A stretch of DNA of 64,000 nucleotides. Origin: Rhipicephalus microplus (Eukaryota; Arthropoda; Arachnida; Ixodida; Ixodidae). This document shows, piece after piece, positions 12,628-42,007 of this stretch. The notes beneath the pieces are model-generated. The model made no database searches, was not told where the DNA came from, and saw nothing but the letters and a program-made list of their open reading frames with translations. The stretch lies in the NCBI RefSeq assembly GCF_043290135.1, contig NC_134710.1, positions 253,786,592 to 253,850,591 on the forward strand, in the 5' to 3' direction. The translations under genes were made by a program, and so were the position numbers. The stretch's first letter is position 1. Each line of letters opens with the position of its first letter.

Positions 12628-13275
12628 ATGGTCACGAATGCTGAATTGTTGCGTGAGGTTGACGCACTTCGAAAAGAGGTGGCAGAAATGCGCAAAAGCC
12701 TTGAGATGTTTAACTCACTGTACGAAAAAATGAAAGAAGTTCAGGAAGCGTTAGCTTTGGACAACAAAACTTTGAGAAAAGAAAACGAGGACCTAGCGAG
12801 AAGACTTTCTAATTCAGAGCAATACTCTCGTATCAACAACATTGAAATCAAGGGTATACCTTGCGTGCAAGGGGAGGACTGCAAAGCCATCTTGCAAAAA
12901 CTTGGGGACAAGATAGGGTGTCCAGTGACCTCTACAGACATTGACGTCGTTCACCGTGTACCCGCCAAAAAGGACAAAAACATAATAGCCCGATTTTGCG
13001 TGAGAGCAAAGAAAGCTGACTTTATCAGCAAAGCTAGGAAAGCTAGGTTTACTACGGCAGACCTTGACCTCCCACAGACCCCGGCCGTTCTAATCTATAT
13101 CAATGAACACTTGACGCCTGAAAACAAGCGCCTTTTTGCGCAGGCATTAGCTCTGAAAAAAGAAAAAAAGTGGAAGTTTCTTTGGACTGATGGTTGTCGT
13201 ATCAAGGCGAGGGAAACGGAGGACAGCCGGGTGTGTGTCATTGGAAGCACAGGGAACCTGTCGAAAATTTGCTAA
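12628..13275 (+). CDS. LINE ORF1 protein, coiled coil plus baculovirus-FP-like domain
   Basis: An intact 215-codon ORF starting at ATG in the good context ACCATGG. Residues about 5-65 form a charged heptad-rich coiled coil (LREVDALRKEVAEMRKSLEM), which in such proteins drives trimerisation. After it come YSRINNIEIKGIP (about 68-80) and VVHRVPAKK (about 107-115), then AVLIYINEHLTPENKRLF and WKFLWTDGCRIKARETEDS in the C-terminal third. I recognise this pattern from arthropod LINE ORF1 proteins that carry a domain related to baculovirus FP25K C-terminus. The role is RNA binding and particle formation for the element's own transcript. The endonuclease ORF follows 32 bp later in another frame. No break is visible, in contrast to ORF2. 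Confidence 0.85.
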   Translation: MVTNAELLREVDALRKEVAEMRKSLEMFNSLYEKMKEVQEALALDNKTLRKENEDLARRLSNSEQYSRINNIEIKGIPCVQGEDCKAILQKLGDKIGCPVTSTDIDVVHRVPAKKDKNIIARFCVRAKKADFISKARKARFTTADLDLPQTPAVLIYINEHLTPENKRLFAQALALKKEKKWKFLWTDGCRIKARETEDSRVCVIGSTGNLSKIC

Positions 13276-13307
13276 TGGGACCTAACCAAGTTTGACTTGG
13301 CTTGATA

Positions 13308-16207
13308 ATGGGTTACGTGCCTTCCGGGATAAAACATTTAGTCTCAGCTAAAAAACCAAAATTGACGTTTTTTCATCAAAATATTCGTTCACTGCCAAAC
13401 AAAATAGACGATTTCAGCTTGCTACTCGACACTTTCAGAACATCGTTTTCGGTAATAATGTTAACTGAAACTTGGTTAACGCACACATTGGACATGTTTC
13501 AGCTTCCTGGCTATCAATCGTTCCTCCGAAATCGTCGTGATAAGCGAGGGGGTGGTATCGCACTCTTTCTCAAGGAAAATATCTTGGCTGAGCTCATGGT
13601 TGAATTTACTGATATAACCGCTGATTATGAGGTGTTAACAGTGCAGAGCAGTAACATGTTCTCCGTTATGTACAGACCTCCATCTGGTGACACAACAAGA
13701 TTTTTTGTATTCCTTGAAAAGCTTTTCAGCTATTCATTAGAAGAGAAAATCAACCTGGTCTTAGGTGGTGACGTCAATATAAACACGCTTTCATCATCCC
13801 CGTTACAAAAAGATTTCCATTCACTCATCACAACTTACGGCTTTTCAAACACGATATCTTCTGCAACACGTGTGACTATCGACGGTGCATCTCTGTTAGA
13901 TGTATTCATCTCAAACATTAACATCGACTTGTTAGAGGCCGATGTTCTGTACACTGACATTACTGATCACCTAGGTATTATATTACTGGTAAATCAAATG
14001 CACTCCATTCCTAGTAAAACTACAAAGCCAGTTCTTATTCAATCTATTACCTCATCAATTCTTGAAGAATTTCGCAAAGTTATTGCCCAAGAGGCATGGA
14101 ATAGCGTTTACAGATCGAAAGATAGTGACGTTGCATACAATGCTTTTATTCGCACTTTCCAAACACTTTACCATGATCATTTTCCCAAGAAAAAAGTGGC
14201 ACGGGCATCCAGGGCACGCAAACCTTGGCTAACGCCTGAGCTTCTTCGTATGATTAAACGCAAACATGCCCTGTATGCTCAATTTGTGAAGTCTAGAGAT
14301 AAAGCCCTCCTAAGCGAATTTAAAAAATATCGAAATAGTCTAACAAGTCAGCTTAGGTCTGCAAAGAATGCCTATTTCGCAACAATGTTTAGTGACCCAG
14401 TCAATCAAAAAAGTGATGTGGTCTGGCGCAAACTGAATGCTTTGTTAAAGCCTACTTCACTTTCAGTACTTCCGGATGTTTTGAGTCACGATGGCCAAAA
14501 ACTTTCGGGAAAGGCGATACCGGATGCGTTTCATGAGTTGTTTTCATTAAAACCTCAGTTAAATAACGTTGATGGCCTCGATAACTATGCTCAGTTCCTG
14601 CCTGTAAACGCGTTTAGTAACTCTATTTCTTGCCCCAACTACACCACTGGAAATTTTTTCTTGCTTCAGTACTATTAGTAACAACCGCTCCTTGGACGCC
14701 GATGGTATCCAAATTCGCCCCATAAAGCATGTGCTTGACATCATATGCCCTGTTCTTACCCATATTTATAATTTAATATTATCTACAGGTGTATTTCTCA
14801 AACAAATGAAGATTTCACGCGTTGTTCCTGTTTACAAGCATGGTACTTAAGAAAACATTAACAATTATCGACCTATTTCAATAATCCCAGTGTTTTCAAA
14901 AGCAATGGAAAAATTAATGCATATCAGATTGTTATCATTTTTTAATCACCACAATTTGCTTCAAGATTTTCAACATGGGTTCAGGAAGCATCGCTCTACT
15001 GAAACAGCCCTCTTGACTCATAAAGAAATAATCATAGATGCATTTAGTCGTAAAAAAATGGCATTAGGCATATACGTCGATTTTTCTAAGGCATTCGCCC
15101 TAATCAGTCATTCCACCCTTCTCAGCAAATTAGAAAATTATGGTGTGCGTGGGACAGCGCATGCTCTTTCAAAACCCTACCTTTCAGAGAGGACACAATT
15201 TGTAGATGCCAACAATGAAATATCTGCAAGGAAGCCGGTCGTTGTAGGTGTGCCACAAGGAAGTATTTTAGGGGCACTTTTATTTTTGAATTATAATAAT
15301 GACATTGTACACTGCACAAACAACGCATCATTTGTCTCTTACGCCGATGACACAACAGTTTTTATTACAGAGAGCATGGAAACAGAGATGGAAGAAATGG
15401 CTAATGAAACACTGTCTGCTATAGATACCTGGGCTTCAGTGAACTTACTAAAACTAAACCCTTCAAAAACACAAGTCATTTTATATACGCCTAAATGAAA
15501 AACCTTGATAAATATTATGAGCTTATTTCTGGGCTCTCAGCAGTTAGACATGGTTTATTCTGTTAGTATTCTTGGTGTATATTTTTCACGACACCTCACG
15601 TGGAATGTACATGTTGATATTCTATACTCTAAGATGTCATCGGCCATTGGTGTTCTTGCACGTATGCGATCTCTTCTTCCCACTAAGGTCAAAATTATGA
15701 TATACAATGCACTGGTATCATCTTTGTTACAGTACTGTAGCTTAGTGTGGTGCACAACCGGTGTGATGACTGTTTTAACTGTTTTGCTGTGGAGAGGTTG
15801 AGGTGACGAATTTGCGCAAGTTGCACTTACTACAGAAAAGGGCCGTACGACATATTGCGGCTGAACACTATCTGTCCTCTACAAAACTTCTTTTTCTAAA
15901 ATATGATATTCTTCTAGTTTTCTTTTTGTACAACTACAGGCTGATGTTATGCTATAAAGAGTTTGTCAAACATTGTACCAATACCACAACACATCTTGCT
16001 AAACTTAGCGTAAATACAAGTGTTCGACTCACCAGGCACAAAAAAGTTTGAACTGTACCCACCCCAAGAACATTTTATGACAAGCAATCATTGTCCTACA
16101 GACTACCTTCTTTGTTAAATTTTTTAAACCGCGAAGATTTCGATCCTTCCTCTAAAGAAAACTGTCAGATTAGACACTTCGCCCAACTGATACATTATCC
16201 TCAATGA
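13308..16207 (+). pseudogene. LINE ORF2: AP-endonuclease plus reverse transcriptase, broken
   Basis: Starts at ATG 13308 (MGYVPSG). The endonuclease part is intact: FFHQNIRSLPNK, MLTETWL, a GGGIALF loop, SVMYRPPS, LGGDVNIN and ITDHLGI carry the expected N, E, D, N and DH residues. A linker with RKPWLTPELLRMIKRKHALY follows. The frame shifts near 14640-14690. In the new frame there is a TAA at 14848, then RT blocks NNYRPIS, FQHGFRKHRSTETAL, YVDFSKAFALISH, GVPQGSILGALLF and SYADDTTVF (catalytic DD at about 15345-15350). A TGA follows at 15496, another frameshift near 15760-15800, a TGA at 16049, and a C-terminal end at 16207. The RT active-site motif is kept, so inactivation is by frame loss and is fairly recent. 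Confidence 0.88.
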
Positions 16208-24918: not shown

Positions 24919-24923
24919 GACGT

Positions 24924-26091
24924 TGTCACACCTGTCCCGTTTATTAGGGAGGCGATCGCCGGGCTAATTCCAAGAGCCGAAGTATCGGCCCCCCCGAACC
25001 GCACCACGAAAGCGTGGACAATTTAGAAGTGGTCCTTATTGGTGCGCCAGCGGACGCCGGCTGTGGCCCAAAGAACAAGACAGAGCCGAGAGTTGATAAA
25101 CAAACAAAATTATATTCTCATTAACGGCAGATCAAAAACAATACACACGTATGCACACTCCACAATAGTTACATACAATACGTCACCAAACAAACAATGT
25201 ACTACACAGTACAATCAACCACACTTGAAACAACGGACACAGACAACAATACGCACTACAATGCAGTCGCATGCATTGAACAACCAAGACACTTAAAGAC
25301 CAACGAGATATAAAACCTATTCAGTCCAAAGTCCTTGGAACAAAAGTCTGAATGATACTCTTCCGAGAATCACTCACTCAAAGTCCAGCGTTGTTGTCGT
25401 TCCGCAGCTCTCGAAGTTCTCTTCCAGGAAACCTCCCGTCTTCAATTGGCCACTCTTCCAACTTCAACTTCTTCGCCGGAAATCCGTCGGCTTCACACAC
25501 GCAGCTGTTGCCCGCGTCTTCGCTCGATAGCGGTAAACACACACTCTTGCCTGTAGCTCGAGCCGTCCCTACGGACCACAAACTTCGCCGACTACACGGC
25601 GGACTCTCTACGCACTCAGGCGCTCACTTCCGTCTCCTCCTGTTCTGTCACTACGGGCAGAACCTTCGCCGACTACACGGCGGAATTCCTACGCGTTCTG
25701 GCGTTAACTTCCGTCACCTCCTGCTTTCTCGTCTCGGCCGCTCGATTAAATACCTTCCGCGCCACTTTCCAGAATTTTCTCGTCCTTTCGTCGGCGCGAT
25801 ACGCAGCGAAGGCTGGAGAGAGGCGAGACGGTTTGTCAGCCCTCCGCGTCGGGTGACTCAGCTCGGCGTAGCCACGCCTCCCTCGTTCTGGAAATTTCTA
25901 GCGCTTGCCCGGCCGCCGCTGTGGGGTGAGGAGGTTCGTCTGCGAAGCCGTGCTTCTGCGGGGAGAGCGCGCGCCCGGGAGCCTTGGATGTTTGCTTTCT
26001 TTTTTTTTCTTTTTACCTCGCGGCGTTTCTACCGCCCGTTGTCGCAAGGATTTGGCGGCGCGCTCTCTTTTTTAGCGCTCGTTCTGTGACA
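24924..26091 (-). repeat. 3' LTR of the LTR retrotransposon
   Basis: 1,168 bp. On the minus strand it starts TGTCACAGAACGAGCG and ends GGTGTGACA. A polyadenylation signal AATAAA lies at 24945-24940, near the end. A TATA-like GGTATTTAAT lies at about 25754-25744. An internal imperfect tandem pair is visible at about 25582-25740 (CTTCGCCGACTACACGGCGG at both starts, about 80 bp apart). A 245-codon plus-strand ORF in it is not coding because it runs antisense and is repeated only through the LTR. Confidence 0.96.
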
Positions 26092-26105
26092 CTGCCCCCC
26101 ACTTT
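26092..26105 (-). promoter_or_regulatory. Polypurine tract of the LTR element
   Basis: The minus strand reads AAAGTGGGGGGCAG directly before the 3' LTR. This is the usual primer site for plus-strand DNA synthesis. Confidence 0.85.
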
Positions 26106-26486
26106 AAGAATATTATCTCATAATATTCAAAACCACACAAACGAGCGCGAACAGTCACCACACATTCTCACAGACTGTAACACAATCCGTCGCTCATGAC
26201 ACTTCACATTCACAATATATCACTCAATACAATCGTACATTGTAGTTCAATTCCACAACACATGAAATATAGCCACAGGTACATGCCTACAACACTTCAT
26301 CACACATTCTAAACAATACAACCGTACAAAGTTCTGTCTATCCAACAATTATACAACACTATACATCACACCATCGCACAGAACACTGACTCACTCGACA
26401 TACACTTGAGACACAGGATAACAAGAATATTAACACAACATATGTCACTCAGCCCTGCCGAACACATTCTGATTCCACCTCAGCAC
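26106..26486 (-). other. Non-coding 3' internal region of the LTR element
   Basis: About 380 bp rich in A, C and CA-type words between the gag stop and the polypurine tract. No ORF. In a complete element the pol ORF would occupy this side. Confidence 0.6.
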
Positions 26487-28619
26487 CTATCTTGAGTACT
26501 TCGAACAGCGCTTGCGCCCCTTTTTGCGGTGCTCGCTCGATCTATTCTTGTGTTTCCACGTTCTTTTTCGGCGAGCCCTTTCCCACGACGATATCTGAGG
26601 CGTCGTCTCAGCCATCGTTGTCTCTTCCGACACCGTTAACGCGTCATTACATTCGACGGGTCCTGTCTGTTTATTTACCCGCTTGATAATGCCTCTACAT
26701 TTTGCCCGGCTGGCCAACTCCGTCTCCTTTATACTGTCTGTCGGTTGAGGTCGTGCCGACGTAAGTCCAGTTGCTCGGCCCGTGGACTCATTCGACACGA
26801 TCGTCTTCTCCTTCGCTGTCTCTTGCGCCGCAGCTTCACCTTGGGCTCTAGTGAGACCCGTCACGGGATGCTCCTCCACTGTATCTCGCGGCCGCTGTGT
26901 TGGCGAGGGCTCTATCTTCGGGTCTTCTCCCAAACATTCCGGATCACTTGGCCCTCGCGCCCCGTCGATGTTTCCGATGACAAGGTCATACAGGGGGGTC
27001 GTCATGCATAAAGCAGTAACCTTCCCGCTGAAGTACGGGGTTTCAACCTCAATTTCTGCTTCGGGAAGCATCCGGACCGTACGGTCAATTAGGCAAACCG
27101 GTTTCGTTCTGCCTGTCAACTCTCTTTCCCGTACCAAATTTCTTCTCACGATAACCGTGGAGCTACCGGTGTCTCTTAGAACCGTAATCTTCTTGCCTGC
27201 AATCTTTCCAGGAAGCGTTGGCATTCCCTTCGTAACACCGGTTGGCTGTTTTGACATTACAGCCCCCACAATAGGAATTTTCTCCCCATTCTTCAACTCT
27301 ACGAATCCATCGGTGACGGCATTATTATCAGATTTCGGTGCCGCTTGCACACAAGATACCTGGTGAGTTTGACTCACTCCGTTCCGACAAGCGTCTGCTT
27401 TGTGCCCAGTCTGACCACAGTTAAAACATTTTACAACCGTAGGGCTCGTAAAGATCGTTCGACAGTTTTTCGCGCGATGACCCACTCGGTTGCACAGAAA
27501 ACATCGCGGAATGCTCTCTGGTGCACGCTTCTTTTCTTCGGGAGCCAATTCCTTCGACTCATCGGGACAATCTTTCTTGACCTTGGCCAAATTAGTTCCT
27601 CCTTGCGCTTCTAAGAACTGATCAGCCAATTCAAGCATTCCTTCAAATGACTCCGCCTTCCTCTCTTTCAAATACAGCGACAGGCTTGGGTGGCAACTAG
27701 TAAGAAATTGTTCTTTAATTAGCAGCTCTCTAAGCTCATCGTACTCCTGTGCTGTCCCTGAAAGTTCAATCCATCTGTCGAAATAATGGCAAAGTCGGGC
27801 AGCATACTGCGTAGCTGTCTCACCATCAGCTGGCTTTCCTGTCCGAAATCTGTCCCGGAATCCTTCCACGGTAAATCTAAATCGCTTCAACAAAGCAGCT
27901 TTCACCTTTGCGTAGTTGGCTGCATCGGTCGGCGTCAGCCTACCGTACACACTGAGCGCTTCACCACTCAAGCAGGTACTCAAAGCAGTTGCCCATTGCT
28001 GTTCCGGCCAATTCTGGCTCCTCGCAATCGTCTCAAATCTGTGGAGGTACGCGTCTAGGTCGTCCTTCCTTTCATCAAACGCTACGAGCAGCTTGCTTGG
28101 GTTCAAGCGGAAGCCGTGATCTTCCCGTTCGCTGCTTTCAACTCTAGCTTGGACGGGAGTTTCGTTTCGCTGTTGCAAACGGAGCCGCTCGAGTTCAATT
28201 TCGTGCTGCCGCTGCCGTTCCCTTTCAGCCATCTCCGCTTCTCTTTCTTCTTTCAGCTGGCGCTCCCTCGCTTCTCTTTCTTCTCTCGCCCTTTCGGCTG
28301 CCAACTTCTCTCTCTCCAGCTCCAACTTCAATTGCTGCTCTCTTTCTTCCTTCAGCTGTCGCTCCTTTGCTTCTCTTTCTTCTCTCGCCCTTTCAGCGGC
28401 CAGCCTTTCTCTCTCCAACTCAGCTGCCTTTTCCGCTTTGGCTCTTTCGACCGCCAACCTCTCTCGTTCCAACTCAGCTGTTTTTTCTTCCTTGGCTTTC
28501 TCAGCTGCCAACCTTTCTCTCTCCACCGCCTCTTTCTCCTTCTGGCTTACCCATTTCCGTAGTTCGGCGCCGGAAAGACCCATCTTCTCACCAAGCGCAA
28601 CTAACTTTTCGAGATCCAT
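26487..28619 (-). CDS. Retrotransposon Gag-protease polyprotein
   Basis: An intact 710-residue ORF. I take ATG 28619-28617 (MDLEKLVALGEKMG); the upstream in-frame TTG is unlikely. Residues about 25-160 are an extreme charged coiled coil built of repeats of ERERLAAERAKEEK. A Gag core with a SCAN-like pattern follows (AYLHRFETIARSQNWPEQQW, ALLKRFRF, QYAARLCHYFDRWIEL). Next come two CCHC zinc knuckles: CFLCNRVGHRAKNC and CFNCGQTGHKADAC. Then an aspartic protease with ITVLRDTGSSTVIV (active D in DTGSS) and a downstream LYDLVIGNIDG. The C-terminal 140 residues are hydrophilic, ending in a basic tract (WERARRKRTWKHKN). The protein would form particles, bind RNA and cleave itself. RT must come from a relative. 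Confidence 0.92.
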   Translation of the reverse strand: MDLEKLVALGEKMGLSGAELRKWVSQKEKEAVERERLAAEKAKEEKTAELERERLAVERAKAEKAAELERERLAAERAREEREAKERQLKEEREQQLKLELEREKLAAERAREEREARERQLKEEREAEMAERERQRQHEIELERLRLQQRNETPVQARVESSEREDHGFRLNPSKLLVAFDERKDDLDAYLHRFETIARSQNWPEQQWATALSTCLSGEALSVYGRLTPTDAANYAKVKAALLKRFRFTVEGFRDRFRTGKPADGETATQYAARLCHYFDRWIELSGTAQEYDELRELLIKEQFLTSCHPSLSLYLKERKAESFEGMLELADQFLEAQGGTNLAKVKKDCPDESKELAPEEKKRAPESIPRCFLCNRVGHRAKNCRTIFTSPTVVKCFNCGQTGHKADACRNGVSQTHQVSCVQAAPKSDNNAVTDGFVELKNGEKIPIVGAVMSKQPTGVTKGMPTLPGKIAGKKITVLRDTGSSTVIVRRNLVRERELTGRTKPVCLIDRTVRMLPEAEIEVETPYFSGKVTALCMTTPLYDLVIGNIDGARGPSDPECLGEDPKIEPSPTQRPRDTVEEHPVTGLTRAQGEAAAQETAKEKTIVSNESTGRATGLTSARPQPTDSIKETELASRAKCRGIIKRVNKQTGPVECNDALTVSEETTMAETTPQISSWERARRKRTWKHKNRSSEHRKKGRKRCSKYSR

Positions 28620-28804
28620 TGTGTCTCGCAACTCGTAAATAAAACCTTGCCGCGTGCAAAAAGTATCTGCCTAAATCTGTCTATCGGAACACTCCCCTGC
28701 ACTCGTTAACGAGAACACTGAACAACACACAAAATCGTTCCGATAGCACTATCAACAACTCGAGGCTCTTTCTCACTACTCTGGACACACTGTGCACCAA
28801 AAGG
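28620..28804 (-). other. Leader between primer-binding site and gag
   Basis: About 185 bp of untranslated leader on the element's strand. No notable ORF. Confidence 0.6.
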
Positions 28805-28821
28805 TCCTGTCGCGGACGCCA
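28805..28821 (-). promoter_or_regulatory. tRNA primer-binding site of the LTR element
   Basis: The minus strand reads TGGCGTCCGCGACAGGA, starting 7 nt inside the 5' LTR. TGG pairs with the CCA end of a tRNA, and the implied discriminator base G fits a serine tRNA best, but I cannot name the tRNA with certainty. Confidence 0.75.
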
Positions 28822-28828
28822 GATTAAT

Positions 28829-29996
28829 TGTCACACCTGTCCCGTTTATTAGGGAGGCGATCGCCGGGCTAATTCCAAGAGCCGAAGTATCGGCCCCCCC
28901 GAACCGCACCACGAAAGCGTGGACAATTTAGAAGTGGTCCTTATTGGTGTGCCAGCGGACGCCGGCTGTGGCCCAAAGAACAAGACAGAGCCGAGAGTTG
29001 ATAAACAAACAAAATTATATTCTCATTAACGGCAGATCAAAAACAATACACACGTATGCACACTCCACAATAGTTACATACAATACGTCACCAAACAAAC
29101 AATGTACTACACAGTACAATCAACCACACTTGAAACAACGGACACAGACAACAATACGCACTACAATGCAGTCGCATGCATTGAACAACCAAGACACTTA
29201 AAGACCAACGAGATATAAAACCTATTCAGTCCAAAGTCCTTGGAACAAAAGTCTGAATGATACTCTTCCGAGAATCACTCACTCAAAGTCCAGCGTTGTT
29301 GTCGTTCCGCAGCTCTCGAAGTTCTCTTCCAGGAAACCTCCCGTCTTCAATTGGCCACTCTTCCAACTTCAACTTCTTCGCCGGAAATCCGTCGGCTTCA
29401 CACACGCAGCTGTTGCCCGCGTCTTCGCTCGATAGCGGTAAACACACACTCTTGCCTGTAGCTCGAGCCGTCCCTACGGACCACAAACTTCGCCGACTAC
29501 ACGGCGGACTCTCTACGCACTCAGGCGCTCACTTCCGTCTCCTCCTGTTCTGTCACTACGGGCAGAACCTTCGCCGACTACACGGCGGAATTCCTACGCG
29601 TTCTGGCGTTAACTTCCGTCACCTCCTGCTTTCTCGTCTCGGCCGCTCGATTAAATACCTTCCGCGCCACTTTCCAGAATTTTCTCGTCCTTTCGTCGGC
29701 GCGATACGCAGCGAAGGCTGGAGAGAGGCGAGACGGTTTGTCAGCCCTCCGCGTCGGGTGACTCAGCTCGGCGTAGCCACGCCTCCCTCGTTCTGGAAAT
29801 TTCTAGCGCTTGCCCGGCCGCCGCTGTGGGGTGAGGAGGTTCGTCTGCGAAGCCGTGCTTCTGCGGGGAGAGCGCGCGCCCGGGAGCCTTGGATGTTTGC
29901 TTTCTTTTTTTTTCTTTTTACCTCGCGGCGTTTCTACCGCCCGTTGTCGCAAGGATTTGGCGGCGCGCTCTCTTTTTTAGCGCTCGTTCTGTGACA
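28829..29996 (-). repeat. 5' LTR of the LTR retrotransposon
   Basis: Near-identical to 24924-26091, with one visible difference (T at 28950). It carries the same TATA-like and AATAAA positions. As the upstream LTR on the minus strand it should drive transcription toward the gag ORF. Confidence 0.96.
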
Positions 29997-30558: not shown

Positions 30559-32504
30559 TTTGTTTCTCGCTCGGCACAGACCACTTGCGGCCAAGCGACG
30601 GCCACGTGCGGCTTCACGCTTCCGCTCTCCTTGGCTGCATACTGGCGCGTAAAATGCTAAACTAAAACGCGCAGGACGTCATTTATCGATAGAGGCATTG
30701 CGGTAGTCTAAATTTGTAGGTTTAAGTTTGAAATCGGCCAACTCAGTTCATCACTGTGCAAAATGAGAACCCTACGCGACATTTAGCCCATGTAATGTCG
30801 CTGTATCCTCTATTCCGGCACGTGGTGAGGAGTGAAACTTTTTTATAATATTATGTAAATTATGTAGAAAGGAACCAAAATGGGAAAGGTCTAGCTAGCA
30901 CGTCTTTCTTTTTCTTCGTTGAAGCAGGACGTGCAGCCATCTTGGTGGCCAATCTTTCCTTGTTATCCAGGCAGCTTTCTGGCAACTTTCACCGTGACTT
31001 TGACAGTGAGCAGTGCTGACACGCTACAAAACTATAAATAAGTAAAACGTGAATGAAGAACGGGTCACAAAAAGACCCACTCGTGCGTCTTTTTTTGACC
31101 CATATAAGATGTCAAAACCCTCGTCCTCTTTGGATGAAAGCATGTACCTCCTGCTAACATTCGAACAACCAAAACAATTTTCAATCACGCACGTCCCCCT
31201 TCACTTCGGTCACGTTCTAGCCAACTTCAACAAGCTGGCTGAGGCCTCTTCTACCACTTCTTATTTGACTGCATCGATACACAAGTGCTATCGATTTTAG
31301 GACTATTAGGGCAAATGTAAAGACAAAACTGAATTTGCGACATGATGGTCTTGCTGTTACACTTACGTCAGTCAGGTCCCGATACAATTTTCCACTTAGG
31401 GACCTCCTATATACTAAACACATGTAACATTCTTCTATTGGTATCAATAAAAATTCTGATTCTGAGGTGCTTTAGACATTTCTTAATCTCTTGCTAGATT
31501 TTTTGACGTATTTCTTTATTTGCTTCGTCGTTTTCACTGCTTGTACTCTTTTTTTTTCCTTTCCATATAGCCTCCAACACCTGATCTCATATCGCAGAGC
31601 TGACACGGACGATTCAGTTCAACTTATAATATCCCTCTGTTCCTATCACTGAGTTTAGATCTGTTGAACGAGAATAACGAGAGTTGAACGTAAATGTAAG
31701 ACTTGGGAGAGTCTGCATTTCAACGCCTCTTGTGAGGCTTTAAGGCCGAAGCAGTAACAATCTTGTCATACGTACTATGGCTGCTATGTTTTGGGTTGAA
31801 ATGCGGTTTTCGAAGAAGTATGGAAGCAGGAACAATATACGGAGGACGTGGGTTCTATGTCTTTATATATTCCTATATGTGTCGGATAGTAAATTCAAGA
31901 GTTATACAAGCATAGTGTAGTCAGGGAAATGTATACGTAAATAATGTTTAGGCTTTTAAACGCCAATGATAACACAATGATACATGCTAAACAGTGATGG
32001 TGGTGCACTACGTAAAGTGGAACTCCACAATAATTTTAAACACCAGAGTTTTCTTAATATACAACAAAACCTAAATCAGACGAAAATATTCGGGTGTGCT
32101 TGGCATTTCAGTCACGTAGAAATATGGAATGTGGGCGGGAGTAGAACACGTGAACAACAGCATAGCAGCGCAACACCTTGGTCGCTATGCTATCATGCCG
32201 TGCGGAGTGGCAAATTTTTAAGAAAAAAAACACCAAAGGAAAAATAGAAATGCAACCATAAGTGCCCAATGCTCTTTATGTGCTCAACGAGCTATCCCCA
32301 AATCGCTTAATATATTCGCTTTTATTCTTTGCTTACTTCTCTGAATAAAAACAAGTGGGCTGGCAACTCTAGCCGTTGTGAATCGCAGCGCATTCCGTCA
32401 AGAAATATACGCATCAGACTGCACCGCCTTTCTTCGAGTCGTCTACAAAGTGCCACTGCTGGCTAAATATTTAACCATCTTTACTTCTAACGTCGCCTCG
32501 GGTG
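30559..32504. other. Unassigned stretch, no gene recognised
   Basis: Only ORFs below 90 codons without motifs. 31070-31110 contains two copies of AAAAAGACCC or its complement around the phrase ACTCGTGCGTC, a small imperfect hairpin. AT-rich toward 31500 and 31900. Confidence 0.45.
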
Positions 32505-32559
32505 TTCACGGGACGCGTCCATGTTGACACATAAACAAGGGCGCCAGCAGCAGGTGGGA

Positions 32560-32690
32560 AACAGGGACCGAATTGCCTGGGAGGTGAAAGCACTCCAGTT
32601 ACATGCGTACGCATTTGCATTCGTGGGCACCTTTCGAGCCTAAAGTGGCTCCATTTGCATCTACCTGCGGGCAACAAGCGAGGGACCGAA
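32560..32690 (+). repeat. Dispersed repeat C, copy 1
   Basis: Matches 41046-41160 in the same orientation: GAGGTGAAAGCACTCCAGTT, CGCATTTGCATTCGTGGGC, CCTAAAGTGGCTCCATTTGC and a CAAGCGAGGGA ending. About 80 percent similar. Class unknown. Copy 2 lies immediately beyond the right edge of the Penelope-like pair. Confidence 0.7.
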
Positions 32691-33242
32691 AATGTATACG
32701 ACACGTGGACGCTGAAAACGCACAACGGCACAGGAATGCGTGAAGCGTCGGTTTGCCGATGCATGATGCGCAGTTTTTTTTTTCTTTAGCTCGTAGCGGG
32801 TGTTTTATCCATGTCGAGGTAACAAGCTTACTGACAAAGACTAGAGCGCACGCCCCGGCATCCATTTGACGGCTCCCTTCAGGGGGAATGTCACTTTTGG
32901 CTGGGCTTTTTTCGTCCCTTCGGCTTTTCCACGGCAGGCCTCAGGGGTGTCCCGACATCCTTCAGATAATAGAGCGTGCTCGACGTACAGCGGCCATCGC
33001 TGGCTAAACAGCTACCTCTCTTGTCGACTTCAGACGTCATGCGCCAGTCACGCCCATGCTCCCCCTACACCCTGCCGTTCGCTGGTTTCTTTCGCGACAC
33101 AAAATCGCTGCCATCGCTATGGAGACAAATGACCAAAGGGGGTATCGGACATTTCTCAAGGAGTTAATGGACTGCAGTGGTGTGCCCGATTGTCACCTAC
33201 CTCGCACCTGCTCCTTCCATTCAATTGCTAAGCAACAGAGAC
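32691..33242. other. Spacer, nothing recognised
   Basis: Overlapping short ORFs only, GC near 50 percent, no motifs. Confidence 0.45.
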
Positions 33243-33560
33243 CAGCGTATTAATAATAATCATCATCAGGCTGACTGCGCCTGCTGCATGGCCCCTGTCA
33301 TGTTCCGCAAATAAACCCGGTCCTGCGCTTGTTGTGGCCACGTTATACCCGTAAACGTCTTAATGTCATCTGCCCAACTAACTTGCTGTCTCCCACTCGC
33401 ACATTTGCCTTCTCTCTAAATCCCGTCTGTTATTCTCATTAACCAGCACTCATCTCGCCTGCGCACTCTATGCGCTGCGCATGTTTGTTTCTTCTTCCTG
33501 ATTTCGACTGATGTGTTTAACACCCATACGTTGCTTGACGCAGTCAGCTGTGATCCTGTA
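33243..33560 (-). pseudogene. 3' end of a LINE (RTE/craft-like) on the minus strand
   Basis: On the minus strand about 43 codons end at TGA 33268-33266: GRQQVSWADDIKTFTGITWP, then QQAQDRVYLRNMTGAMQQAQ. This is the typical C-terminal tail of a widespread arthropod LINE RT (RWxDDIxxxxG, then WxxxAxDRxxWR). A GATGATTATTATTA tail follows, as in RTE-type elements. Upstream to about 33540 the similarity continues but the frame is broken. A 5'-truncated dead insertion. Confidence 0.7.
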
Positions 33561-33687
33561 CAAGTGAAAACAGGGGAGGGGAGATTTCACGTGCAACCTT
33601 TAGCGTACAATAAGCACCTGGTTTTTTAATATTAATTTGTTTCTTAATAAGCTTTTAAAAAAACAATGCAAGGGTTCACAATGCAAG

Positions 33688-33763
33688 GCCGCTGAGATAG
33701 CTCAGTGGTTAGAGTATCGAACGCGTTCTTCGAAGGTCGTAGGTTCGATTCCTGCTCACGGCT
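33688..33763 (+). mobile_element. tRNA-like SINE head (not a functional tRNA)
   Basis: 76 nt with an A box (TAGCTCAGTGGTTAGAG), a 5-bp anticodon-type stem TCGAA/TTCGA with a 7-nt loop, and a perfect B box (GGTTCGATTCC). The loop lacks the universal U at position 33 and the acceptor stem has two mismatches. It is therefore a tRNA-derived SINE head of a family different from Ruka. The body may extend to the (TA)n at 33863. Confidence 0.6.
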
Positions 33764-33853
33764 GGTTATTTTTTCATCCACTTTTCTTTCTTCTTATTTG
33801 CATTCCATTGGTTGTAATAACTTCCCCTGTACATTCCTTGGCATTACTGTCTG

Positions 33854-33858
33854 TTATA

Positions 33859-33946
<88 letters not shown>

Positions 33947-33951
33947 TATAA
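33854..33951. repeat. (AT)n microsatellite inside a perfect inverted repeat
   Basis: (AT)40 at 33863-33942 is framed by TTATATCTCAT on the left and ATGAGATATAA on the right, so the whole 98 bp is palindromic. It marks the left edge of the Penelope-like pair. Confidence 0.93.
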
Positions 33952-33956
33952 TGAGC

Positions 33957-36383
33957 CATTATGAGTCATCCGGAAAACAGCTAAGGAACAAAGAGAACCA
34001 ACTCTTTGCTACGCGGAATTTCACTGCCGATGAAAGAGCGTCACTTGATAACTACAGGCAAGAAAAAATTCGCGAGCTCAGCGACAAAAAATATAAAAAA
34101 TTGATACGCGATAACATTTGCACAAGCGTCAGCACTCTTGATGACGCAACGTCTTCAGTGCATTTGTCCTCCGCAGAAGCTGGAAATATAGTAAATATTT
34201 CTAGTGCCACGTTATCAGCTGAAGAATTGAGCGTTCTTTCCGGTGGTTTGAACTTTTGCCCTGCCACTGGAGGATACAATGAATTCCAACTAATCAGTGA
34301 TTTACACAATTTTGAAAGAAGCATGCGTTTACGCGAATACTTTCATAATCGGCCTCCATCTATCAAAACAGCGATTTTTTCTACTAAGCACTGGACTCCC
34401 CCTTCCCAAAGGGATAAATGTCTCGATATTTACATCCGAGCAGTGCAGCGAGATGTACTCGAAGCATACAAAAAGCAATCGCCGTTTCACCGCAACCTAA
34501 GCGACAAAGAAAAACAAGCGATCCAGACCCTGGCTTCTCGAGACGACATCGTCATCAAACCGGCCGATAAAGGGGGAGCAATCGTAATAATGAATAAGGC
34601 GGATTACCTTCGTGAGGCCTACAGGCAATTAAATGACCTCACATTTTACAGACATTTGAGCTACGACCCAACCGAGGAATTCAAGACCAAAGTAAAAGAA
34701 ACTTTAAAAAAGCTTGTAAGAAAAAATAAAATTCCAGAAACTGTGCTTAAATCCTTAGTCCCCCTGAGTCCGGTAGCTGGTAGATTTTATCTGCTTCCTA
34801 AAATTCATAAACAAAATAATCCAGGCCGGCCAATAATTTCAGGAATAGGAACCATTACGGAAAGCCTGTCTCGATATGCAGACAGCCTAATTAGTTCAAT
34901 TCCTTCTAACTTTTCTTCATATGTCAAGGACACTAATCACTTTCTGCGTGACATTGTAAATATGCGTGTTCCGAGTGGGGCTCTTCTGGTCACACTAGAT
35001 GTGGTGTCACTGTACACAAATATACCCCATGCGGACGGGATTCGTTCTGTACTCCAAGCATACAATGACTTGGTAAATGACAAACCCATCGACGGTTCCA
35101 CCTTGGGCACTATTTTATCACTGATACTCGAGCTTAACAACTTTGAATTTAACGGTGAACATTATGTTCAAACCAGCGGCACCTCGATGGGCACAAAAAT
35201 AGGTCCCAATTATGCAAACATCTTCATGGGCATTCTAGAAAATAACTTTCTCGCCACTCGTGACCTTAAACCACTTTATTACAAACGCTTCATTGATGAC
35301 ATTTTCTTAATTTGGCACCATGGTGAAGTGGCATTACAATCTTTCATTGCAGACTTTAACAAAGTAGAACCATCCATCTAGTTTTCCCACTCTTATTCAC
35401 CAGTCACCATAAACTTCCTTGACGTCAATGTAGCTTTAAGCAATGGTAAACTAACGACAAACCTATACAGGAAGCCCACTGACCGACAAAGATATCTTCA
35501 TTTTAAAAGTAGCCATGTCAAACACTGCAAAACAAGTATCCCTTATAGCCAAGCTATCCGTTTTAAAAGAATTTGTTCGGACAACAGGGATTTCACTCGC
35601 AACTGTGACCAGCTCCGTAAAGCATTAACCGAACAACAATATCCTTCACAAATAATTGACGACGCTCTCCAACGAGCAAAATGTCTCGATCGGAAAGAGC
35701 TCATCAGTAAAGACAAGCGATTAGCGCCACCTTCCCGAACCAACCTCATTCTCACGCATTCTTCATCTATTCCTAACGTGTCGTATATACTCAGAAAGCA
35801 TTACAACATACTGACACAGAACGATCGGCTTAAGGACATCTTCACTGAATCACCGCGGGTTGTATATCGGAGATCAAGGAACTTGCGCGACATGGTAACT
35901 TCTTCCAAGACTAGATTCATTGCTCCCGTTGGTTGTCACCCCTGTAAAAAAACCCGATGTAAAATTTGTGCGCACATGACCACTGCAACTGTTGCTAAAA
36001 GCACGGCATCTAACTTTTCACTTAGGATTAAAGGGGACTTAAACTGCGATAGCAGCAACATCATTTACTTGCTTGAATGCTCAATCTGCCACATGCAATA
36101 CATCGGTCAAACCGAGACATCTTTTCGCATCCGTTTCAACAACCACAAATCACACGTAAACATTTTGCCACATCTTCCATTGTCCAAGCATTGTCATCTA
36201 CCAGGTCATTCGTTTGACAAGATTATGGTAACACTATTAGAATCTGGCTTTAAATCGCACCATGATCGCGAAATTCGAGAATCGTTCTTGATTCACAAGT
36301 TCAACAGTCTGTTATCCGGCATTAACGAATGCGTAGGAAAAGTGTCATGCCTTTCTACGATGCCCTTACGTCCGAAATTTTGA
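33957..36383 (+). pseudogene. Penelope-like RT plus GIY-YIG endonuclease, one in-frame stop
   Basis: A single open frame of about 809 codons, interrupted once by TAG at 35379-35381, where copy 2 has TCC. RT blocks in order: KPADKGGAIVIMNK (motif 1 region), GRFYLLPKIHK and GRPIISGIGTITE, LVTLDVVSLYTNIPH (motif A, catalytic D), SGTSMGTKIGPNYANIFMG (motif B) and YKRFIDDIFLIW (motif C, DD). The stop falls after the catalytic core. Then FLDVNV, NLYRKPTDRQRYLHF, a cysteine pair region CHPCKKTRCKICAHM, and the GIY-YIG nuclease with NIIYLLECSICHMQYIGQT, RFNNHK and an E in RESFLIHKFN. The downstream part could not be translated from this copy without readthrough. Confidence 0.93.
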
Positions 36384-36658
36384 GAAATATTTAAAGAAGC
36401 ATCCCTGACGTATAATATACTTCCTAAAGGTTATCACATATTTATACTTTTTTCATGCGTCATCCCCGTCGTCAATGGTGAATGTTAGAAATGTCTTTTA
36501 CATGCCCACAATCTTGTCTATTGTATTAGATTTTAATCGTTTGTAGTGTAGTCACGGCTGTTTAAAAGAATTTTTGTGACACTCACATGCTGATCGCACG
36601 TGTTTTGTACTGACGTGTTCATGCCTGCCCATACAAGCGGCCACATACTCGTATTTCT

Positions 36659-36704
36659 GTTAATCCTGACGAAGGCCGTGCCACGGCCGAAACGTAGAGT
36701 AAAC
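36659..36704 (+). ncRNA. Hammerhead-ribozyme-like motif in Penelope 3' region (copy 1)
   Basis: Core CTGACGA at 36666-36672, helix II GGCCGT/ACGGCC (36674-36679 with 36683-36688, loop GCC), then GAAAC at 36689-36693, followed by GTA, a permitted cleavage triplet. Helix I would pair GTTAATC (36659-36665) with GAGTAAAC (36697-36704), with one A-G mismatch and a bulge. Helix III is minimal and its ACGT is self-complementary, which suits dimeric hammerheads. Small hammerheads of this kind are known in Penelope-like elements of many eukaryotes. Confidence 0.6.
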
Positions 36705-36794
36705 AATTATCAAATTTTCGTAAGTGTGCTCCTTTATTCTTCACTATATTTGCACCGGACCCACAGAATTTCTTTTTTGAATCATTTTACCACT

Positions 36795-37967
36795 ATGGGT
36801 CCCGGAAAAGCCACTACGAAAATTGTTGACTGCAAATATCCTAAGAGTGTCACATCGACAGCCATTTTGGGTGACTCACAGACAAAATACTTATACCAGC
36901 ATTTTGATCCGCTTCATGCGGGTACACCAGCCTTCATCTCTCAGAGTGGTGCTACCATCAGTGATGTAAATTCACTATTGGACTTCGTGCCTCCGTTAAC
37001 GGAAACGCTCATCCTTCACGTTGGCAGCAATGACATCCCAAAGTGTTCCGGCAACGTGGCTTTTGCCAGGTACCGCGAGATGCTGGATATCGTAATGAAA
37101 CGGCGCCCCGCTATACGTCGAATATACGCAAGCCTGGTCCTGCCACGATCCTGCAACCGCCGTCAAGGTAGCAGAAACGAAGCCTTTGTGCAACGTTGCA
37201 ACAAGTCTGCAAGATTTTTCAACCAGCTCCTTCGGAACTTTGGCCAACGTTCAAAGCTGGTATTTCACGTCGATCATGGATTTGAATGGCTCCCGTCATC
37301 TCGCGTGCTCGCAAGTGATGGTCTCCACCCAAGTTTCGAGGGCTTTGCGCTACTTGCCTGTCACTTTCGACAGTTGTGCTTCAAAAATCCACGTGATGCG
37401 TCATCGGCTGCTTGGGAAGACTACACAAGCAGCGGAACTATTTGTAATGTGCCTCGTGCCACGAAAGCTCGTTCTCACGACAATCTTCCGTCATCTGAGA
37501 AAGTGACTGCACCCTCTGCTAGAATGCCACCAAGTGGTATCAAAGCGATAAAAATTCGCTCAGCGACAGGGCGATCAAGTGCGACGACAACAGCAAACAA
37601 CATACATGGAAGCAGGGCAGCGACAAGCAAGCCAACGACAAGGCGGCCATCGACCAGCAGGGCTTCTGAGAACAAGGCCACGGCGAGTGATGCAGTGAAT
37701 AAGCTGACACTAAGAAAAAAGACATCGCCAAGCTGTGTACCTTCAACCAACGCAACGACCAGCCTGACAACGAGAAACAAGACACCGGCAAGGACAATTA
37801 CCACGACGATGACAGACAAAGCAGTGTCTTTTTACAGGGTTACGAACAATCCAGTGAGCAGCAAGGCAACACCGGCCGCTTCTCCACCTCCCAGCGGGGC
37901 CACGTCGTCCCAGTCAAGGTACCAATTCAGAAGCAAGCGGCCTGATCCTACCCAAGCAACCGAATGA
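36795..37967 (+). CDS. SGNH/GDSL-hydrolase ORF of the Penelope-like element
   Basis: 390 residues, intact. I choose ATG 36795 (MGPGKATTK). The frame is open further upstream to 36600, but that part lies in the preceding copy's 3' UTR. All SGNH blocks are present: block I ILGDSQTKY (nucleophile S28), block II SGATISDV (G52), block III HVGSNDI (N79), block V SDGLHPS (D175, H178). The catalytic domain ends near residue 200. The last about 180 residues are low-complexity, rich in S, T, A, R and K. Similar hydrolases act as esterases and occur in ORF1 of some CR1 LINEs; their task there is unknown. The stop is TGA followed by CTA, and the RT ORF continues in the same frame, so a fusion by readthrough is possible. 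A splice-donor-like GGTAAG lies at 37983-37988. Confidence 0.88.
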   Translation: MGPGKATTKIVDCKYPKSVTSTAILGDSQTKYLYQHFDPLHAGTPAFISQSGATISDVNSLLDFVPPLTETLILHVGSNDIPKCSGNVAFARYREMLDIVMKRRPAIRRIYASLVLPRSCNRRQGSRNEAFVQRCNKSARFFNQLLRNFGQRSKLVFHVDHGFEWLPSSRVLASDGLHPSFEGFALLACHFRQLCFKNPRDASSAAWEDYTSSGTICNVPRATKARSHDNLPSSEKVTAPSARMPPSGIKAIKIRSATGRSSATTTANNIHGSRAATSKPTTRRPSTSRASENKATASDAVNKLTLRKKTSPSCVPSTNATTSLTTRNKTPARTITTTMTDKAVSFYRVTNNPVSSKATPAASPPPSGATSSQSRYQFRSKRPDPTQATE

Positions 37968-37970
37968 CTA
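37964..37970 (+). promoter_or_regulatory. TGA-CTA readthrough context between SGNH and RT ORFs
   Basis: TGA at 37965-37967 is followed at once by CTA. UGA-CUA is the best-known leaky stop context in animals and viruses. No other in-frame stop occurs until the 38336 frameshift. The first in-frame ATG (in KMYIATS, about 38080) lies downstream of the stretch FLKLRKVIEKRIRCDLHAS, which looks like conserved N-terminal RT sequence. Confidence 0.5.
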
Positions 37971-40653
37971 CCACCTAGCCGGGGTAAGACTCCCTTTGGG
38001 GATGCCTCAGTGCATTTTTTGAAGCTTAGAAAAGTGATAGAAAAGCGTATTCGCTGTGACCTCCATGCTTCCACTTTAAAGATGTATATTGCTACATCAA
38101 CAGTACCTAAGGGTTTAAGCCTTAACTTAAGACCTGCTACGTCTGAAATGACTAGCAATAATCTCTCCAGGTGGGACAACACGCTCAAAGAAGCGTCTCT
38201 GGAACTCACGCGCATTGTGACTAACCATTATGAGTCATCCGGAAAACAGCTAAGGAACAAAGAGAACCAACTCTTTGCTACGCGGAATTTCACTGCCGAT
38301 GAAAGAGCGTCACTTGATAACTACAGGCAAGAAAAAAAATTCGCGAGCTCAGCGACAAAAAATATAAAAAATTGATACGCGATAACATTTGCACAAGCGT
38401 CAGCACTGTTGATGTCGCAACGTCTTCAGTGCATTCGTCCTCCGCAGAAGCTGGAAATATAGTAAATATTTCTAGTGCCACGTTATCAGCTGAAGAATTG
38501 AGCGTTCTTTCCCGTGGTTTGAACTTTTGCCCTGCCACTGGAGGATACAATGAATTCCAACTAATCAGTGATTTACACAATTTTGAAAGAAGCATGCGTT
38601 TACGCGAATACTTTCATAATCAGCCTCCATCTATCAAAACAGCAATTTTTTCTACTAAGCACTGGACTCCCCCTTCCCAAAGGGATAAATGTCTCGATAT
38701 TTACATCCGAGCAGTGCAGCGAGATGTACTCGAAGCATACAAAAAGCAATCGCCGTTTCACCGCAACCTAAGCGACAAAGAAAAACAAGCGATCCAGACC
38801 CTGGCTTCTCGAGACGACATCGTCATCAAACCGGCCGATAAAGGGGGAGCAATCGTAATAATGAATAAGGCTGATTACCTTCGTGAGGCCTACAGGCAAT
38901 TAAATGACCTCACATTTTACAGACATTTGAGCTACTCCCAACCGAGGAATTCAAGACCAAAGTAAAAGAAACTTTAAAAAAGCTTGTAAGAAAAAATAAA
39001 ATTCCAGAAACTGTGCTTAAATCCTTAGTCCCCCTGAGTCCGGTAGCTGGTAGATTTTATCTGCTTCCTAAAATTCATAAACAAAATAATCCAGGCCGGC
39101 CAATAATTTCAGGAATAGGAACCATTACGGAAAGCCTGTCTCGATATGCAGACAGCCTAATTAGTTCAATTCCTTCTAACTTTTCTTCATATGTCAAGGA
39201 CACTAATCACTTTCTGCGTGACATTGTAAATATGCGTGTTCCGAGTGGGGCTCTTCTGGTCACACTAGATGTGGTGTCACTGTACACAAATATACCCCAT
39301 GCAGACGGGATTCGTTTTGTACTCCAAGCATACAATGACTTGGTAAATGACAAACCCATCGACGGTTCCACCTTGGGCCCTATTTTATCACTGATACTCG
39401 AGCTTAACAACTTTGAATTTAACGGTGAACATTATGTTCAAACCAGCGGCACCTCGATGGGCACAAAAATAGGTCCCAATTATGCAAACATCTTCATGGG
39501 CATTCTAGAAAATAACTTTCTCGCCACTCGTGACCTTAAACCACTTTATTACAAACGCTTCATTGATGACATTTTCTTAATTTGGCACCATGGTGAAGTG
39601 GCATTACAATCTTTTATTGCAGACTTTAACAAAGTAGAACCATCCATCTCCTTTTCCCACTCTTATTCACCAGTCACCATAAACTTCCTTGACGTCAATG
39701 TAGCTTTAAGCAATGGTAAACTAACGACAAACCTATACAGGAAGCCCACTGACCGACAAAGATATCTTCATTTTAAAAGTAGCCATGTCAAACACTGCAA
39801 AACAAGTATCTCTTATAGCCAAGCTATCCGTTTTAAAAGAATTTGTTCGGACAACAGGGATTTCACTCGCAACTGTGACCAGCTCCGTAAAGCATTAACC
39901 GAACAACAATATCCTTCACAAATAATTGACGACGCTCTCCAACGAGCAAAATGTCTCGATCGGAAAGAGCTCATCAGTAAAGACAAGCGATTAGCGCCAC
40001 CTTCCCGAACCAACCTCGTTCTCACGCATTCTTCATCTATTCCTAACGTGTCGTATATACTCAGAAAGCATTGCAACATACTGACACAGAGCGATCGGCT
40101 TAAGGACATCTTCACTGAATCACCGCGGGTTGTATATCGGAGATCAAGGAACTTGCGCGACATGGTAACTTCTTCCAAGACTAGATTCATTGCTCCCGTT
40201 GGTTGTCACCCCTGTAAAAAAACCCGATGTAAAATTTGTGCGCACATGACCACTGCAACTGTTGCTAAAAGCACGGCATCTAACTTTTCACTTAGGATTA
40301 AAGGGGACTTAAACTGCGATAGCAGCAACATCATTTACTTGCTTGAATGCTCAATCTGCCACATGCAATACATCGGTCAAACCGAGACATCTTTTCGCAT
40401 CCGTTTCAACAACCACAAAACACACGTAAACATTTTGCCACATCTTCCATTGTCCAAGCATTGTCATCTACCAGGTCATTCGTTTGACAAGATTATGGTA
40501 ACACTATTAGAATCTGGCTTTAAATCCCACCATGATCGCGAAATTCGAGAATCGTTCTTGATTCACAAGTTCAACAGTCTGTTATCCGGCATTAACGAAT
40601 GCGTAGGAAAAGTGTCATGCCTTTCTACGATGCCCTTACGTCCGAAATTTTGA
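37968..40653 (+). pseudogene. Penelope-like RT plus GIY-YIG endonuclease, two frameshifts
   Basis: Follows the SGNH stop in the same frame. The N-terminal part includes FLKLRKVIEKRIRCDLHAS and VPKGLSLNLRP, and ends at a frameshift at 38332-38339, where an A-run has eight bases against six in copy 1. A second frameshift at about 38935 replaces CGACCC with CTCCC. From 39013 to 40653 the frame is open for 546 codons and covers motif A (LDVVSLYTNIPH), motif B (SGTSMGTKIGP), motif C (FIDDIFLIW), the cysteine cluster and the GIY-YIG nuclease (IIY, QYIGQT, R, E). The damage differs from copy 1. Both shifts lie before the RT core, so neither copy encodes a complete protein. Confidence 0.92.
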
Positions 40654-40928
40654 GAAATATTTAAAGAAGCATCCCTGACGTATAATATACTTCCTAAAGG
40701 TTATCACATATTTATACTTTTTTCATGCGTCATCCCCGTCGTCAATGGTGAATGTTAGAAATGTCTTTTACATGCCCACAATCTTGTCTATTGTATTAGA
40801 TTTTAATCGTTTGTAGTGTAGTCAAAGCTGTTTAAAAGAATTTTTGTGACACTCACATGCTGATCGCACGTGTTTTGTACTGACGTGTTCATGCCTGCCC
40901 ATAAAAGCGGCCACATACTCGTATTTCT

Positions 40929-40974
40929 GTTAATCCTGACGAAGGCCGTGCCACGGCCGAAACGTAGAGTAAAC
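40929..40974 (+). ncRNA. Hammerhead-ribozyme-like motif in Penelope 3' region (copy 2)
   Basis: Identical in sequence to 36659-36704, offset 4,270 bp. Core CTGACGA at 40936-40942 and GAAAC at 40959-40963. The unchanged sequence fits selection or simply the recent duplication. Confidence 0.6.
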
Positions 40975-41014
40975 AATTATCAAATTTTCGTAAGTGTGCT
41001 CCTTTATTCTTCAC

Positions 41015-41039
41015 TATATATATATATATATATATATAT
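41015..41039. repeat. (TA)n at the right edge of the Penelope-like pair
   Basis: About 12 TA units where the copy-1 sequence would read TTTGCACC. Together with the left (AT)n it suggests insertion into a TA microsatellite. Confidence 0.9.
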
Positions 41040-41045
41040 CGTTCT

Positions 41046-41160
41046 GCTTGGGAAGTGAAAGGACGCCAGTTCCATACCTTCGCATTTGCATTCGTTGGCG
41101 CCCTTCGAACCTAAAGTGGCTCGATTTGCGAGCTACAAGCGAGAGATTGGTCTTTTTTCC
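41046..41160 (+). repeat. Dispersed repeat C, copy 2
   Basis: Same-orientation partner of 32560-32690. It begins a few bases after the (TA)n and ends before the next microsatellite. Confidence 0.7.
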
Positions 41161-41184
41161 TATTTATCTACGGCAACCAAAGAC

Positions 41185-41186
<2 letters not shown>

Positions 41187-41269
<83 letters not shown>
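41187..41269. repeat. Compound microsatellite (AT)n-(AG)n
   Basis: About 29 AT units followed by about 12 AG units. ORFs across it are artefacts. Confidence 0.97.
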
Positions 41270-41275
<6 letters not shown>

Positions 41276-42007
41276 TAAGGTATCGCTTAGTATACCCTCT
41301 GCTAGCCGACGTCGTGGACAAATAAAATTAAGACAACTGCTAAGTTGTGTTTCTTCCGTTTTATGTATACGTGTGGCCAACTAGAAAAGCTTCTTGAATA
41401 TATATATATCACTTCCCGAAGCTCTTGGCAAGGAAACTGTCAGCAAAACAGACACGAAAGAAGTGAAGAATATATTAGTGCAGCATATTAGGTGGGGTTA
41501 GCAAATTGCGAACCGCCACTACCACAAATGATGTTCGGCAACCAACAGCACAAATGGATATTTATAAGGCACTTACGATCATTGCTTTTATGGAGTATAA
41601 AATTCCACATCGTGTGGCAAAAATCTCGCAGATCCCGCACCGGGATATGAGCCCCTTTAGTTATGTATGGTCAAACTTTGTTTAGAGTCCAGCTAAAGAT
41701 TTTTATTAGAAGCGCAGTTACGTCAACGCCGTCACCAACTTTATGAGCTGCGGAGCGAGTTCCACCTGAATGGCCAATGTAGCTTTGTTTTTTTTGTTAT
41801 TTTGAAAGTGCCGCTTCTTCATGGCGATGATAATGAAAGAACGACGCACTCAAACTAGACATACTTTTGCTGTAACTCATGGAAACTTCACGTCATTCAT
41901 TGCGTTTGTCTTGGGTGCATTAGCCCGGACTGCGTACTGATATCCGCATACGATACCCTTGATTTGTGCTCCAAAACTCTTCTGTTTTTTTTTCTTGAAC
42001 GTCACAG
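41270..42007. other. Spacer, nothing recognised
   Basis: AT-rich, small ORFs only. A short (TA)5 occurs at 41400. Confidence 0.5.

Follow-up and report, generated by a model that had tools for sequence, protein, structure and literature searches.

The window analysed here, a 64,000-nucleotide (nt) stretch of the genome of the tick Rhipicephalus microplus (NCBI RefSeq assembly GCF_043290135.1, contig NC_134710.1, positions 253,786,592 to 253,850,591 of the forward strand), contains a Penelope-like element (PLE) in which the open reading frame (ORF) of an SGNH esterase is followed, in the same frame, by a UGA stop, a C, a short linker free of stops and the ORF of a reverse transcriptase (RT) with a GIY-YIG-type endonuclease. 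The same junction recurs in further families of the element that were sampled from this genome. We consider it likely, at a probability of roughly 0.8, that programmed readthrough of the UGA yields the SGNH protein together with a minor SGNH-RT-GIY-YIG fusion. It also seems fairly probable to us that in this tick radiation of PLEs the polymerase is produced solely through readthrough, as an extension of the SGNH esterase, in the manner of Gag and Gag-Pol. The original prediction had placed an intact SGNH ORF and a GIY-YIG-type Penelope RT ORF in one unit, which we confirm at 36750-41019; its view of the host element and of a hydrolase kept functional stood, its claim that the combination was novel did not, and the shared-frame junction with its single UGA had escaped it.

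The genome searched comprised 3.26 Gb in 1202 contigs. In the window, the element is present as two adjacent copies with the following features:

33956..36749, + strand: copy 1, a 5'-truncated PLE copy with an RT carrying one in-frame stop, then the 3' region (blastn and translation)
36666..36693, + strand: hammerhead-ribozyme-like core, located some 100 nt before the SGNH start (pattern match)
36750..41019, + strand: copy 2, a complete PLE unit of leader, SGNH ORF, RT ORF and 3' region, with a (TA)n run at its end
36795..37967, + strand: SGNH hydrolase ORF1, 390 amino acids (aa), intact; esterase core at about residues 1-200, tail at 200-390
37965..37967, + strand: UGA stop, then CUA, a type II readthrough context (context class as in passages of PMC3542737)
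37968..38015, + strand: open linker of 16 codons in the frame common to SGNH and RT, with no in-frame AUG
38016..40653, + strand: RT-GIY-YIG ORF2, with an N-terminal FLKLRKVIEKR...PKGL region, RT and endonuclease; two frameshifts in copy 2
40936..40963, + strand: a further hammerhead-like core, within the copy 2 3' region (pattern match)

The complete unit is thus about 4.3 kb long and has two ORFs. Copy 1 is 99.07% identical over 2796 columns to 38225-41019 of copy 2 (blastn of 32000-42000 against the window), and the two copies form a partial tandem, an arrangement typical of PLEs. The two frameshifts divide the RT of copy 2 into three frames, and the RT of copy 1 is open except for its one stop.

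For the junction, one boundary each was tabulated from 14 families, taken from the window and from loci of the same genome and delimited by our own grouping (own, A-K, M and N); at the RT N-terminus, pairwise differences amount to 38-61% for 10 of the 14. The stop is TGA in every family, the RT N-terminus lies in the frame of the upstream ORF in every family (chance 2.1e-7 if frames are random and families independent) and the +4 base is C in every family (chance 1e-8 on the same terms), although these chance figures overstate the independence of families that share descent. The codons that follow TGA are:

CTA: nine families (own, A, B, D, E, F, H, I and M)
CTC: family J
CTT: family G
CTG: family K
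CGG: family C
CAT: family N

A type II context (CUA or CGG behind the UGA) together with an extension in frame is accordingly present in the window element and, in all, in 10 of the 14 families (9 CUA, 1 CGG). The codon ahead of the stop is NAN in 14/14, with AGG in a further family G copy (L112), and a fifteenth family (L120), read after the tabulation, has GAT TGA CTT, the same frame and an open linker of 16 codons. The tabulated linkers span 14-23 codons, and no stop occurs among their 232 codons (P 1.7e-5, calculated from base composition); in the other frames of the same region, stops occur in 9/14 families at +1 and in 14/14 at +2. An upstream ORF with an SGNH core was demonstrated for 12 of the 14 families. 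In a wider survey of 59 loci (L061, L063-L120), many of which belong to a single family, TGA followed by C was found at the expected place in 49, and within the own family TGA was retained in all 35 copies that cover the stop (36 examined).

Both ORFs are under purifying selection, as estimated from nine families (own, A-G and J; 36 pairs). Between families, the SGNH core had a mean proportion of nonsynonymous differences (pN) of 0.27 against a proportion of synonymous differences (pS) of 0.78, with pN below pS in 36/36 pairs, which bears out the earlier suggestion that the hydrolase has been kept functional. For the 40 RT codons that directly follow the linker, the values were 0.31 against 0.79, again with pN below pS in 36/36 pairs, indicating that this stretch, largely devoid of AUGs, is read in that frame. 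The linker, with a pN/pS of 0.91 and pN below pS in only 21/36 pairs, is not conserved yet stop-free, and is therefore kept open rather than kept similar, as would be expected if it were merely read through. Synonymous sites are near saturation, yet the frame, the UGA and the following C persist. Codon-position counts within families are weak and consist mostly of private changes; the shared changes at positions 1, 2 and 3 numbered 4, 3 and 13 for the RT N-terminus and 4, 5 and 5 for the SGNH core.

The RT N-terminus mostly lacks a start codon of its own. In 11 of the 14 families, the conserved F-x-x-x-R-K motif has no AUG in frame ahead of it or in contact with it; the first AUG comes after 182 and 208 codons in families C and F, and none occurs in the 124, 56 and 63 codons read for families H, M and N. 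This arrangement can lead ORF prediction to miss the RT N-terminus, as exemplified by the database protein P0033 (876 aa), whose first residue is an internal Met located 18 codons inside the 894-aa frame of family A. That the window RT had lost its own AUG through a small indel was considered and dropped, as most own-family copies share the frame and 11/14 families are AUG-less; five own-family copies (L007, L011, L024, L026 and L055) are one base shorter in a T-run.

According to the readthrough model, translation would begin at the SGNH AUG, and most ribosomes would halt at the UGA, releasing an SGNH esterase whose long tail is probably disordered. A minority of them would decode the leaky UGA-C (mostly UGA-CUA, once UGA-CGG) as an amino acid, traverse the linker of 14-23 codons and complete an SGNH-RT-endonuclease fusion, and such a fixed leak would keep the ORF1 protein in excess over the polymerase, like retroviral Gag relative to Gag-Pol. 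We infer the occurrence and level of readthrough, and the fusion protein, from sequence; the reading of SGNH plus a minor fusion is prompted by the nine of 14 families with CUA and the one with CGG, since passages of PMC3542737 define type II readthrough as UGA followed by CGG or CUA. In the HEK-293T work described in part of PMC4132726, UGA-CUA alone gave 1.5% readthrough, and far more with its flanks. By analogy with the ORF1 protein of ZfL2-1, the role of the esterase might be related to lipids or membranes.

Several observations weigh against readthrough, beyond the shared descent of the families. Viral type II sites often have a 3' stem-loop about 8 nt after the stop, according to passages of PMC3542737, and on average no such signal was detected in nine tick families (mean folding z -0.06, -0.35 and -0.46 at three lengths), only family J folding strongly 3' of the stop (z -2.5 to -3.9). 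The tabulated loci were picked for intactness and diversity, the families were grouped by ourselves, and 4/14 families (5/15 with the later one) depart from CUA/CGG. Upstream of the junction, only the C-terminal tail was seen in family N, where it resembles that of the SGNH protein P0029 (E 1e-5 to 8e-5), and family M and the fifteenth family have an open frame with a similar tail motif and no SGNH match in the short stretch read. In the wider survey, 10 of the 59 loci do not fit: the boundary is damaged in six (L075, L077, L092, L095, L105 and L106), L098 has TGA but unrelated upstream sequence, and a sense codon replaces TGA in L076 (family D), L094 (own-like) and L107 (family C), the frame running from the upstream ORF into RT, with other in-frame stops carried by L076 and L094. 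In the own family, the stop is followed by CTA in 30/35 copies and by another codon in 5/35, and TGA is one of 11/129 triplets that never vary, so that its constancy there is weak evidence. Distances in SGNH and RT correlate weakly and not significantly (Mantel r 0.23; 880/9999 permutations as high), and no PLE family devoid of SGNH, which could have served as a control, was met among the loci read. Finally, families A, B and K have an AUG in frame within the linker or directly beside it (codons 18, 15 and 8), and in these families the RT could possibly initiate on its own.

These AUGs also speak for a different reading, in which RT is translated alone from a start downstream of the UGA, whether an AUG, a non-AUG codon or reinitiation, and the shared frame is inherited and unused. 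Translational coupling of ORF1 and ORF2 does exist in some non-LTR (long terminal repeat) elements. Nevertheless, this reading appears unlikely, as 11/14 families have no AUG before or at the conserved motif, the first AUG in C and F being far inside the RT, and reinitiation explains neither the 14/14 shared frames, nor the absence of stops from 232 linker codons, nor the C after every tabulated UGA. Splicing that removes or skips the UGA, and so joins SGNH to RT at the RNA level, we regard as very improbable. Some PLEs keep introns, and a GTAAG in the linker of the own family (37984-37988) could be a donor; splicing would not need an open in-frame linker, yet all 14 families keep one without conserving its amino acids.

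The last alternative, under which SGNH and RT would be two distinct repeats or have come together by accident in the window, draws on the broken RT frame of copy 2 and on the lack of SGNH in copy 1, which is simply 5'-truncated, and is already refuted by the copy counts. The SGNH-RT junction (37850-38250) was matched at 40 places including that of the window itself, at 89-100% identity (82 candidates, of which 40 were scored). With the RT N-terminus as query, 150 matches were scored of 3056 candidates, and the best 30 were taken as loci, including the window's own and some near-identical pairs; in 26/30 an SGNH core or its tail lies upstream in the same orientation, and the other four (L038, L044, L050 and L056) are 5'-truncated within the boundary or a few codons before it, three of them at TA runs. 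Conversely, from an SGNH search (150 scored of 1997 candidates), 14 loci were fetched for diversity, four of them of one family, and the RT N-terminus lay downstream in 14/14. The check proposed with the original prediction, whether SGNH hits are followed by a Penelope RT, is thereby answered positively for these loci, and neither of the two outcomes that it had named as speaking against it, most copies of the family lacking SGNH or SGNH residing mainly in another element, was encountered. When an SGNH-RT query was used to look for gene models that fuse the two, two proteins matched at E 1e-30 or better, both of them RT only.

The catalytic S, G, N, D and H residues are all present in the SGNH protein of the window, and across 31 aligned sequences each is either invariant or conserved to at least 90%. 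Single SGNH copies can lack one or more of them (e.g. L063); in this family B copy the Asn of the SGNH motif is lost, and a tick protein (P0006) has Thr there, so the family B hydrolase may be inactive. In the alignment to 4c1b, with ZfL2-1 numbering anchored on H282 (as given in passages of PMC3905857), the transposon-specific H191 and S228 of ZfL2-1 correspond to H75 and S113 of the window protein; H75 is at least 90% conserved in the 31 sequences, and position 113 is S or T across families. The structure model is weak at residues 161-180 (predicted local distance difference test, pLDDT, 49-63), the stretch with D175 and H178, and it has low confidence in the tail (200-390), which is probably disordered. 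An R/P-Y-x-x-R motif lies 10-13 residues ahead of the UGA in 12/14 families (not D and H), in a tail that is otherwise unconserved. ZfL2-1 (4c1b) was not among the 50 fold matches listed for the SGNH protein, which excludes nothing, and a scan of viral contigs with the SGNH core gave no match.

By its domain order, its tandem structure and PLE sequence motifs, copy 2 is assigned to the GIY-YIG-type PLEs. In the window, RVT_1 scored 31.4 bits, above the Pfam cutoff of 29.6, and GIY-YIG scored 12.9 bits, below the cutoff of 22.6; P0033, which is 100% identical over the aligned length to a family A element of the same genome, reached 23.9 bits for GIY-YIG, above the cutoff. The tandem organisation seen in the window, with its truncated copy and complete unit, is repeated elsewhere: head-to-tail tandems occur at a constant period, which is 4172 bp between matches in family A (e.g. 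C1:29574172/29578344/29582516), and head-to-head inverted pairs of copies also occur (the L062 head-to-head pair; L015/L019). Stop-free RT frames of roughly 880-920 aa are found at many of the listed loci, and 34 family A matches of identical score over the 109-aa query, among the best 150 of 3056 candidates, each have an open RT frame of 894 aa. These identical-score family A copies with their open RT frames suggest recent activity. Hammerhead-like cores (CTGANGA-stem-GAAAC pattern) lie in the 3' regions of both copies, as many being found in 12/100 shuffles, and the same motif was recovered by pattern match in loci of families A, B and J; the cores had no Rfam match.

Other repeats accompany the element in the window. 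Positions 24923-25222 and 28828-29127 are identical, the same 245-aa ORF occurs twice, and they flank a minus-strand frame of 714 aa, with what we take to be zinc-knuckle-like motifs, so that 24923-29994 is apparently a young LTR element without obvious pol. A coiled-coil ORF1-like frame followed by endonuclease/RT-like frames at 12628-15498 looks like the remains of a long interspersed nuclear element (LINE). A dispersed repeat of about 230 nt, present on both strands (1437, 2227, 8554, 54873, 56891, 57253, 58124 and 61542), is probably a tRNA-derived short interspersed nuclear element (SINE), because three of its copies were called tRNA-Ser (gct) by ARAGORN.

Little is known of how PLEs produce their proteins and set the amounts of each. 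Were RT made solely as an SGNH-RT fusion, the esterase would be physically tied to the polymerase, and would become relevant to PLE particle assembly, targeting and reverse transcription. The puzzling esterases of retrotransposons would also become directly testable. What appears to be new here is the recurrent in-frame UGA-C junction between the SGNH ORF and RT; the presence of SGNH in PLEs is already known. No report of readthrough in PLEs was found among the listed titles and abstracts of open-licence PMC papers, and RepBase notes or subscription papers may say otherwise.

Among known systems, LINEs of the CR1/L2/RTEX groups differ from PLEs in RT class and endonuclease. Their ORF1 esterase (ZfL2-1; PDB 4c1b) shares with the tick protein the SGNH fold, the catalytic residues and H191/S228 (here H75/S113), whereas the tick element has ORF1 and RT in one frame behind a UGA. 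That SGNH was not known from a standard Penelope element, as the original prediction had it, does not hold, since Schneider et al. 2013 (PMC3905857) state in one passage that the esterase is found 'even in Penelope-like elements'. Those elements, taken from RepBase, resemble ours as Penelope-like RT elements with an SGNH esterase ORF1; the paper centres on the ZfL2-1 esterase structure, its passages are silent on how ORF1 and RT of PLEs are joined, and its Figure 1C legend names chordates, cnidarians and sponges and not ticks. The Athena terminons of bdelloid rotifers likewise combine a Penelope-class RT with a GDSL/SGNH ORF, but are described in passages of PMC5408684 as endonuclease-deficient, up to 40 kb long and rich in ORFs, in contrast to the tick unit of about 4.3 kb with two ORFs and a GIY-YIG domain recognised in its close relative, which sets it apart from terminons. 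PAc of Anolis carolinensis, as far as passages of PMC11167929 describe it, is also a GIY-YIG PLE that forms tandem repeats and carries a hammerhead motif where pseudo-LTR (pLTR) and ORF join, but its single ORF has a start codon of its own, and an SGNH ORF does not appear in those passages. In Tca2 of Candida albicans, a retrotransposon with gag-UGA-pol, the UGA must likewise be bypassed; according to passages of PMC2194720, it is an LTR element of a yeast with a potential 3' pseudoknot, and its flanks alone gave no readthrough in S. cerevisiae. A parallel in context is offered by alphaviruses, tobraviruses and coltiviruses, in which, by the passages of PMC3542737, UGA-CUA or UGA-CGG stands in frame before a polymerase or extension, often with an extended 3' stem-loop, whereas none was detected in the tick element and the host of the junction is a retrotransposon. 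If our reading is true, UGA-CUA/CGG readthrough, known in RNA viruses and a few animal genes, would extend to a radiation of retrotransposons of which many copies appear intact.

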